Positions 48,801 through 50,605 of a DNA stretch of 64,000 nucleotides are shown here, piece by piece. The position numbers and the translations under genes were made by a program. The stretch comes from Chthoniobacter flavus (GTDB taxonomy: Bacteria > Verrucomicrobiota > Verrucomicrobiia > Chthoniobacterales > Chthoniobacteraceae), in assembly GCA_945861435.1 (NCBI GenBank), contig CAMAUX010000006.1:62001-126000 (forward strand), in the 5' to 3' direction. The notes beneath the pieces were generated by a model that saw nothing but the letters and a program-made list of their open reading frames with translations, was not told the DNA's origin and did no database searches. Each line of letters starts with the position of its first letter. Position 1 is the first letter of the stretch.

Positions 48801-49210
48801 GAATTCTCCAGATGCTGCTCGATCTTCGTCAGCGTGCGCGCGCCCCCGCGCGGATCGGGCGCGCCCATTTTCACCCATTCATCGAGCGCCGCGATCTCTT
48901 CATCACTCAGCTTCTTCTTCGGCGGCATCTGCAAATCCTTGTCCGTCCACTTCACGGCCGTGATGAGCAATGACTTCGCCGGATCGCCCGCGACCAGCGC
49001 CGGCCCCGTGTCGCCGCCCTTCAGTAGACCTTCCTTGGTGTCGAGCAGCAGGTTGCCCTTCTGCTTCTTCTCGGCGCTGTGGCACTCGTAGCAACGCTCG
49101 ACCAAGATCGGGCGGATCTTGTTTTCAAAAAATGCGGTGTCCTCCGCGCGCACGCTTGTGTGTGCAAGGAGCGCGAGGAGGAGAGGGACAAGGATGAACG
49201 GCCTAGGCAT
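45893..49210 (-). CDS. PSD1-type protein: planctomycete cytochrome c + DUF1549 + DUF1553
   Basis: Started at ATG 49210 the protein has 1105 residues with a signal peptide ([20 protein letters not shown]). A C-type haem site CYECH is at residues 40-44, followed by the family's [14 protein letters not shown] and [20 protein letters not shown]. DUF1549 occupies about 165-375 ([34 protein letters not shown]) and DUF1553 about 680-920 ([38 protein letters not shown]). The C-terminal portion holds a carbohydrate-binding-like insert. Such proteins are abundant in planctomycetes and verrucomicrobia, normally paired with DUF1501; their activity is unproven. It follows the four-helix-bundle gene with an eight-base overlap. 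Confidence 0.93.
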   Translation of the reverse strand: [1105 protein letters not shown]

Positions 49211-49655
49211 GGGGAATCTCGTCGATGGAGTTGATGAAGGTGAATGGCGCGGGATGGTTCTCCCGAATGCGGTCACAGGCGGGTTCCGTGGATTCCCTTG
49301 CGGCGATGGCAGCGCGCAGACGGACGAGCATGTGGACGAGTTCCTCGAGGAGGCGCTTTCCATCGGCCATTCGGGCGTCGGTGACGGCTTCCTTTGCGAC
49401 CATCACATCGAGGCAGGCGGCGCATTCGAGGGCGGAGCCGTACGCGATGTCGAGGTACTTGAGCCGGTCCCGGATCGAGAACTTGCCGTTTCCCTCTGCG
49501 AGGTTGAGGGGGACACTGGTGCTGGCGCGGTCGAGTTGACTGCGGACATCGCCGCACGGGCCGACCTCGCGATTGAGGACGGATGACCAGCGGATGAAGG
49601 CAAGGGAGCGCTGGTAGACGAGGAGGCGTTCGTGATCGAGGGGCATTCCCATCAT
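49203..49655 (-). CDS. Four-helix-bundle protein (23S rRNA intervening-sequence family)
   Basis: The protein has 150 residues; ATG codons occur at 49655, 49652 and 49646, the last beginning MPLDHERLLVYQRS. Family markers are present: LLVYQRSLAFI, QLDRASTSVPLNLAEG (the hallmark RAxxSVxxNIAEG), and YGSALECAACLDV. Members were first seen in intervening sequences of bacterial 23S rRNA but many lie elsewhere; their function is unknown. It sits between DUF1501 and the PSD1 gene, overlaps the latter by eight bases, and its 5' side abuts a tandem array of hairpin repeats. That arrangement suggests an inserted unit within the operon. Confidence 0.92.
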   Translation of the reverse strand: MMGMPLDHERLLVYQRSLAFIRWSSVLNREVGPCGDVRSQLDRASTSVPLNLAEGNGKFSIRDRLKYLDIAYGSALECAACLDVMVAKEAVTDARMADGKRLLEELVHMLVRLRAAIAARESTEPACDRIRENHPAPFTFINSIDEIPHA

Positions 49656-50605
49656 CCTTTCCTACTCTTACTCTTACTCCTACTCCGCCCGCCGCTCATA
49701 CTCTCGCTGCCGCCCTTCCACATCGCGCCGCTGCGGCGCGGGGTCGGGCCGGGAGTACGAGTAAAAGTACGAGGCCGCGGATCCAGGCTCTTACTCCTAC
49801 TCCGACTCGAACCGCCGCTCATACTCTCGCTGCCGCTCTTCCACATCGCGCCGCTGCGGCGCGGGGTCGGGCCGGGAGTACGAGTAAAAGTACGAGGCCG
49901 CGGATCCAGGCTCTTACTCCTACTCCGACTCGGACCGCCGCTCGTACTCTCGCTGCCGCCCTTCCACATCGCGCCGCTGCGGCGCAGGGACGCGGCGGGA
50001 GTACGAGTAAAAGTACGAGGCCGCGGATCCAGGCTCTTACTCCTACTCCGACTCCAACCGCCGCTTGTACTCTCGCTACCGCCCTTCCGCATTGCGCCGC
50101 TGCGGCGCAGGGACGGGGCGGGAGTACGAGTAAAAGTAAAAGTACGAGGCCGCGGATCCAGGCTCTTACTCCTACTCATACTCCGACCCCCGCTCATACT
50201 CTCGCCACCGCCCTTCCGCATCGCGCAGCTGCGGCGCAGGGACGGGGCGGGAGTACGAGTAAAAGTAAAAGCCCGAGGCCGCGGATCCAGGCTCTTACTC
50301 CTACTCATACTCCGACCCCCGCTCATACTCTCGCCACCGCCCTTCCACATCGCGCCGCTGCGGCGCAGGGACGGGCCGGGAGTACGAGTACGAGTAAAAG
50401 TACGAGGCCGCAGATGCGGGCTCTTACTCCTACTCGTACTTGAAGACAGGCTCATACTCTCGCTTCTATCCAATCGTATCAGACGGCTGTGGTGTGTGTG
50501 CGATGAGGAGCGCTAAACACGCGATGCAGGGGGTGCGGAGGGAGTAGGAAGTGAAAGTACGAGCAAGAGTAAAAGTACGAGTAAGAGGAAGAGGCGAAGA
50601 AGGAC
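49656..50605 (-). repeat. Tandem array of 123/129-bp hairpin-forming repeats
   Basis: At least six units follow one another head to tail; equivalent points fall at about 49691, 49814, 49937, 50060, 50189, 50318 and 50447, so spacings are 123, 123, 123, 129, 129 and 129. Each unit has a near-perfect palindrome GCGCCGCTGCGGCGC, a purine tract built of AGTACG/AGTAAA hexamers, a CCGCGGATCC core, and a pyrimidine tract CTCTTACTCCTACTC complementary to the purine tract. Length differences are whole hexamers. Both strands are free of stops for about 800 bases because all periods are multiples of three. Hexamer-like runs continue to about 50600 and start directly upstream of the four-helix-bundle ATG. 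Confidence 0.9.

Follow-up and report, generated by a model that had tools for sequence, protein, structure and literature searches.

A four-helix-bundle gene with hexamer hairpins as a probable mobile-type element between DUF1501 and PSD1 genes

The window analysed is a 64,000-nucleotide stretch of a 5.35-Mb draft genome (G000) assigned to Chthoniobacter flavus. Positions 49203-50605 carry a gene for a 150-aa four-helix-bundle protein on the minus strand, together with a tandem array of repeats that precedes the gene with respect to transcription. The features of the locus are as follows.

45893-49210, minus strand: PSCyt1/PSCyt2/PSD1 gene, the downstream host gene (Pfam)
49203-49655, minus strand: four-helix-bundle gene of the 23S rRNA IVP/S23p family, LNIAEGNGK clade (profile matches, motif, predicted fold)
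49211-50605, no strand: complete insert of about 1,395 bp, as compared with relatives in which the DUF1501-PSD1 junction is empty
49656-49683, minus strand: purine hexamer tract GAGTAGGAGTAAGAGTAAGAGTAGG reaching the start codon (sequence; period-6 score 21 of 28 for the 250 bp upstream, locus L144)
49665-50440, no strand: array of 6.2 hairpin units (Tandem Repeats Finder, sequence inspection)
49725-49739, no strand: GCGCCGCTGCGGCGC palindrome of the gene-nearest unit, present once per unit (sequence)
50450-50476, no strand: 27-bp non-hexamer core, identical to part of a second array in this genome (L056, on contig C52)
50545-50605, minus strand: outermost pyrimidine hexamer arm, beginning ~15 nt past the DUF1501 stop codon
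50606-52066, minus strand: DUF1501 gene, the upstream host gene

A first-pass annotation, made from the sequence alone, had described a 23S-intervening-sequence-type gene in a DUF1501/PSD1 setting, and profile searches agree on both counts. The gene matches TIGR02436 at 59 bits (cut-off 24) and PF05635, its only Pfam match, at 61.8 bits (cut-off 33.8). It is bordered by a DUF1501 gene (PF07394, 469 bits) on one side and by a gene for a PSCyt1/PSCyt2/PSD1 protein on the other. Its stop codon overlaps the PSD1 start, and therefore no array lies downstream of the gene. The protein has no match in PHROGs, and so nothing marks it as a phage protein.

The AlphaFold model of the protein is a four-helix bundle of good confidence (pLDDT 88). 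The best matches among solved folds are 2gsc (XCC0516), which is also matched by profile with an E-value of 1e-13, and 2rld (BT_0352), of the S23 family. XCC0516 is an assembly of five four-helix bundles, according to PMC4990558 and the reference list of PMC10053308, and by analogy the window protein is probably pentameric. With a net charge of +1, the domain is almost neutral, unlike many RNA-binding proteins, and a strongly basic RNA-binding surface was therefore rejected.

Weaker fold matches are to Avd and to ribonucleoprotein structures of diversity-generating retroelements (DGRs; 4dwl and 8ub7, target-normalised TM-score 0.72-0.87), and a resemblance of PF05635 to Avd has been described (PMC10053308). 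Given this resemblance, the element might spread via RNA with a reverse transcriptase supplied in trans, as for Avd and the DGR reverse transcriptase. The genome does encode two strong RVT_1 proteins. However, the Avd match is weak (E-value 0.08, sequence identity 11-13%), and the locus itself has no reverse transcriptase; all RVT_1 matches are on other contigs (C43, C42, and C58), none of them near arrays. We consider this route distinctly unlikely.

Tandem Repeats Finder reports a period of 123 with 6.2 copies and 90% matches for positions 49665-50440, in keeping with the at least six units of 123 or 129 bp noticed previously. The copies start at 49665, 49788, 49911, 50040, 50169, and 50292; because the spacings are 123, 123, 129, 129, and 123, unit lengths differ by one hexamer, again as had been noticed. 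Every unit combines three parts that together allow a hairpin: pyrimidine hexamers (TACTCN) as one arm, a GC-rich palindrome, and purine hexamers (GAGTAN) as the other arm. The palindrome had been reported for every unit; it is exact (GCGCCGCTGCGGCGC) in five of the six, whereas the fifth unit has GCGCAGCTGCGGCGC. Folding of a single unit is only slightly better than that of dinucleotide-keeping shuffles (z -1.0 and -1.6), and its energy by itself is not decisive as proof of structure. The 123-bp unit occurs at this locus alone in the genome, and it is the hexamer that recurs.

The array is open on both strands, as claimed, with ORFs of 294 and 273 aa. Neither ORF had a family match in TIGR and Pfam profile searches, and an open frame is expected from hexamers, so we do not regard them as real proteins. 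The first-pass annotation had also raised the possibility of a phase-variable spacer, in which the number of hexamers would determine how strongly the downstream gene is expressed. The units do differ by hexamers with the frame kept on both strands, and heptamer copy number differs among Coxiella strains (PMC4990558). However, with lengths of 6 and 123, both divisible by three, an unbroken frame is trivial, and the association of gene and repeat spans phyla with many array layouts. Nothing at this locus came out in support of such a spacer, which we regard as highly improbable.

Comparison with relatives indicates that the region is an insertion, as had been suggested. The DUF1501 and PSD1 orthologues (identity 67-71% and 55-56%) abut in three genomes of the same family (L233, L234, and L235), with overlapping stop and start codons (ATGA) in two and a gap of about ten bases in the third. 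Paralogous DUF1501-PSD1 pairs in other relatives are also close, with the exception of L246, in which the gap is longer. The spacing in this genome is about 1,395 bp. Thus, the locus carries an insert of about 1.4 kb relative to the empty site in relatives.

The motif LNIAEGNGK...GSALECAACLD marks the clade to which the protein belongs. A collection-wide search for this clade produced 80 loci, of which 76 could be tested for flanking repeats. By record titles, in which the labels of metagenome-assembled genomes may be wrong, the 80 loci come from Verrucomicrobia, Planctomycetes, Ignavibacteria, SAR324, Deltaproteobacteria/Desulfococcaceae, Bacteroidetes, and Neomarinimicrobiota. At the 76 loci, 66 upstream and 68 downstream tracts exceed the threshold, and the period is 6 in 62 and 67 of them, respectively, compared with 3 of 135 distal control windows. 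The hexamer is largely GA-K-Y-A-N, and subclades use others (for example, GATACC, GTACGA, and GACAAA). The specific AGTACG/AGTAAA repeat is not found next to the gene at other loci, but a broader class of hexamers is.

Sequence comparisons tie the repeat to the protein in several ways. The two arms within a locus match each other beyond the hexamer that loci have in common and are more complementary than swapped pairs, with 35 of 76 loci above the 99th percentile. Protein distance correlates with arm 4-mer distance (Mantel rho 0.51, reached in 0 of 2000 permutations), whereas the value for distal DNA is 0.007. The partial correlation of protein and arm is 0.51, and it is 0.46 for pairs with more than 35% protein difference. 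At the level of sequence, these tests show that protein and repeat are inherited together, which on its own does not demonstrate physical recognition. Together with the clade-wide flanking repeats and the co-occurrence across genomes described below, the tests uphold the earlier idea that protein and repeat form one unit. Among close relatives of the gene, dN/dS is about 0.03 to 0.21, and the gene is therefore under purifying selection and the protein maintained.

Complementary arms surround the ORF in the order pyrimidine arm, gene, purine arm (Y-gene-R) in 48 of the 80 clade loci. The reverse order beside the gene occurs in twelve, mostly as a result of whole hairpins on each side. Complete hairpins on both sides (YR-gene-YR) are found in the close relatives L152, L155, and L156. 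At the window locus, there is no 3' arm and all hairpins are upstream of the gene; this arrangement is what the YR-gene-YR layout would become if its upstream hairpin multiplied in tandem and its downstream one disappeared.

Some loci have other unusual features. In L142, L270, L271, and L283, the 3' hexamer arm is translated as a C-terminal tail of the protein (DFDFDFDLDLDLDL, DPDSDPDPEKKK, DTDTDADPDKKD, and EEKEEEEEEEEEKE). Two four-helix-bundle domains are fused in L134, L268, and L277, with the repeats TTGTCG in L134 and GTACGA/GTAGGT in the other two. A cut-down clade gene of 51 aa lies between a pyrimidine and a purine arm at L275:143-403 (G298, contig C48) and is a possible step from a gene-bearing to a gene-less hairpin.

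The genome that contains the locus has four TIGR02436 matches, and the other three four-helix-bundle genes are on contigs without arrays. The hexamer pattern AGTASGAGTANNAGTA has 74 hits in the genome, compared with 2 for a reversed control, and these form 18 clusters, most of which are hairpins with hexamer stems and differing loops. All but one of the clusters (17 of 18) are away from any four-helix-bundle gene, and searches of these solo-array loci with the clade HMM found no gene remnants. The five solo clusters that were checked are intergenic, with most neighbouring genes matching known Pfam families. A loop sequence is common to only two pairs of arrays, one of which is the locus and contig C52, with 27 identical bases; for this reason, local slippage may be the source of most solo hairpins. 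The question of whether gene and array occur apart has two answers: the gene nearly always has arrays, but most arrays here have no gene. This pattern fits an autonomous element with non-autonomous copies.

Several arrays depart from the simple hairpin. L056:4308-5517 has three tandem units of ~500-550 bp, each combining hexamer arms with several hundred bases of other DNA. L044 and L054, at the ends of contigs C11 and C45, are one-sided TACTCG/TACTTT arrays that share a bordering 15-mer, which is inverted in one with respect to the other (ATTTAGCGAAGCGCC and GGCGCTTCGCTAAAT). In genomes G028, G037, and G018, solo heptamer hairpins run purine-then-pyrimidine in the places listed, opposite to the hexamer hairpins.

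Among 97 related genomes, the exact AGTA hexamer pattern is abundant in the genome of the locus alone, with 1-7 stray hits in six others; across the phylum it is sporadic. It was therefore rejected as a family-wide mark. When 388 genomes of the phylum were surveyed for arrays, these were detected in 32 of the 40 with the gene motif and in 54 of the 348 without it (odds ratio 21.8, p 1e-16). Array hits number up to hundreds per genome, and the gene motif occurs once to three times. Hexamer tracts thus also occur without the gene, as would be expected if slippage had placed them by chance beside an unrelated gene. However, that explanation is already refuted by the period-6 counts beside the gene, set against those of the control windows, and by the association across genomes.

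The hairpins might instead be host regulatory RNAs, such as terminators or attenuators at operon junctions or RNase sites, with the protein acting as a regulator or present as a hitchhiker. Several solo arrays do sit snugly between real genes, some of them at convergent ends, and the insert itself is at an operon junction. TAACTGA heptamers of Beggiatoaceae have been proposed to act as translational regulators (PMC4679880). However, the AGTA hexamer array is absent from, or has only 1-7 stray hits in, 96 relatives; empty sites exist; and the repeat sequence follows the protein rather than genome composition. We regard host regulation as an unlikely account.

Arms of this kind extend to the wider protein family. 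Among four-helix-bundle loci of the phylum, inverted arms exceed the 95th percentile of swapped pairs in 42 of 58; the set contains six members of the clade of the window protein. Outside the LNIAEGNGK clade, period 6 is absent, and the tracts repeat every 7 or 8 bases. The heptamer GTTGAGR has dozens of dispersed copies in some relatives. On plasmids, 16 loci (15 cyanobacterial and one from Gemmatirosa) have 7- or 8-mers around genes that are mostly annotated as four helix bundle or S23, and inverted complementarity is above the 95th percentile of swapped pairs in 8 of the 16. Some of these plasmid loci are inside cas and nrd operons, among others. Armed genes are within CRISPR-cas operons in the cyanobacterial plasmid loci L249, L251, and L252, with the order cas6-4HB-cas4 twice and cas10-4HB-cmr3 once. 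In Nostoc edaphicum plasmid pNe_5 (L248), a four-helix-bundle gene with GGGAGTA heptamer arms is between the ribonucleotide reductase beta and alpha genes.

The closest known counterparts are intervening sequences (IVSs) of bacterial 23S rRNA genes that carry an S23p ORF, as in Coxiella and Leptospira. In the 23S rRNA IVS of Coxiella, GACAGAT heptamers in strain-variable number immediately precede the S23p ORF, an RNase III site is at the first repeat, and a 28-bp stem joins the ends; S23p IVSs are sporadically distributed, from which horizontal transfer has been inferred (PMC4990558). The window locus resembles these IVSs in its four-helix-bundle ORF, short repeats before the ORF, and sporadic spread, and in being an insert absent from relatives. 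Complementary ends that could close a stem around the ORF are seen in the clade, with only the upstream side represented at the window locus. However, it is in a protein operon and not in an rRNA gene, and it has hexamers rather than heptamers, a one-sided tandem array of hairpins, and many gene-less copies in the genome. It is therefore IVS-like but not an rRNA IVS.

Published heptamer repeats, including the short tandemly repeated repetitive (STRR) sequences of cyanobacteria, GGGAATC of Xanthomonas, and TAACTGA of Beggiatoaceae, are dispersed, mostly intergenic, genome-specific, and partly arranged as inverted pairs (PMC4692102, PMC4679880). The repeats studied here are likewise dispersed, mostly intergenic, genome-specific, and partly in inverted pairs; their unit is six rather than seven, with units of seven found beside other genes of the protein family. 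Neither of these papers links the repeats to a four-helix-bundle gene (the term "four helix" does not occur in PMC4679880), whereas 7- and 8-mers do flank such a gene at the cyanobacterial plasmid loci. In the literature that we searched, mostly open-access, we found no work that makes a general link between PF05635 or TIGR02436 and short tandem repeats; heptamers next to an S23p ORF appear in the Coxiella IVS study alone.

The locus does not qualify as an insertion sequence or MITE, for which a transposase or the terminal inverted repeats of a known transposase would be expected: in Pfam, PF05635 is all that the four-helix-bundle ORF matches, and the array ORFs match nothing. REPIN/RAYT systems and MITE-type hairpins also have many small hairpins for each single-copy protein gene. 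The window locus differs from them in having no transposase of any family and in having arms built of tandem hexamers where those systems have a fixed palindrome.

Taken together, the evidence favours the view, to which we assign a probability of roughly 0.6, that the gene and its hexamer hairpins constitute one mobile-type element, a relative of S23p IVSs that has inserted into a protein operon between DUF1501 and PSD1. In such an element, the complementary hexamer arms would pair in the transcript to form double-stranded stems, which, by analogy with rRNA IVSs, an RNase III-type enzyme may cut. The four-helix-bundle protein would be the putative binding partner of the repeat arms and would be needed for their spread or maintenance, and gene-less hairpins would be non-autonomous copies. 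At the window locus, the upstream hairpin would have been amplified in tandem and the downstream hairpin lost. Counting against an element are the missing 3' arm at the locus, the lack of a transposase or reverse transcriptase within it, the near-neutral charge of the domain, and the small number of arrays with shared loops; it is also conceivable that the gene makes use of arms that are RNA signals of the host.

As judged on the open-access literature, an ordinary-looking hypothetical gene thus appears to belong to a type of element that is widespread but has hardly been described. We tentatively extend this view to the family, at somewhat less than even odds: S23p/Avd-family proteins may be dedicated partners of short tandem repeat hairpins, with each clade reading its own repeat length (6, 7, or 8) and sequence, and the heptamers of cyanobacteria, Xanthomonas, and Beggiatoaceae may be non-autonomous copies. 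If true, this would give a single answer to two questions, namely what S23p proteins do outside rRNA and where the hexamers and heptamers scattered in cyanobacteria and other bacteria come from. It would also explain the presence of such genes inside CRISPR-cas and ribonucleotide reductase operons.
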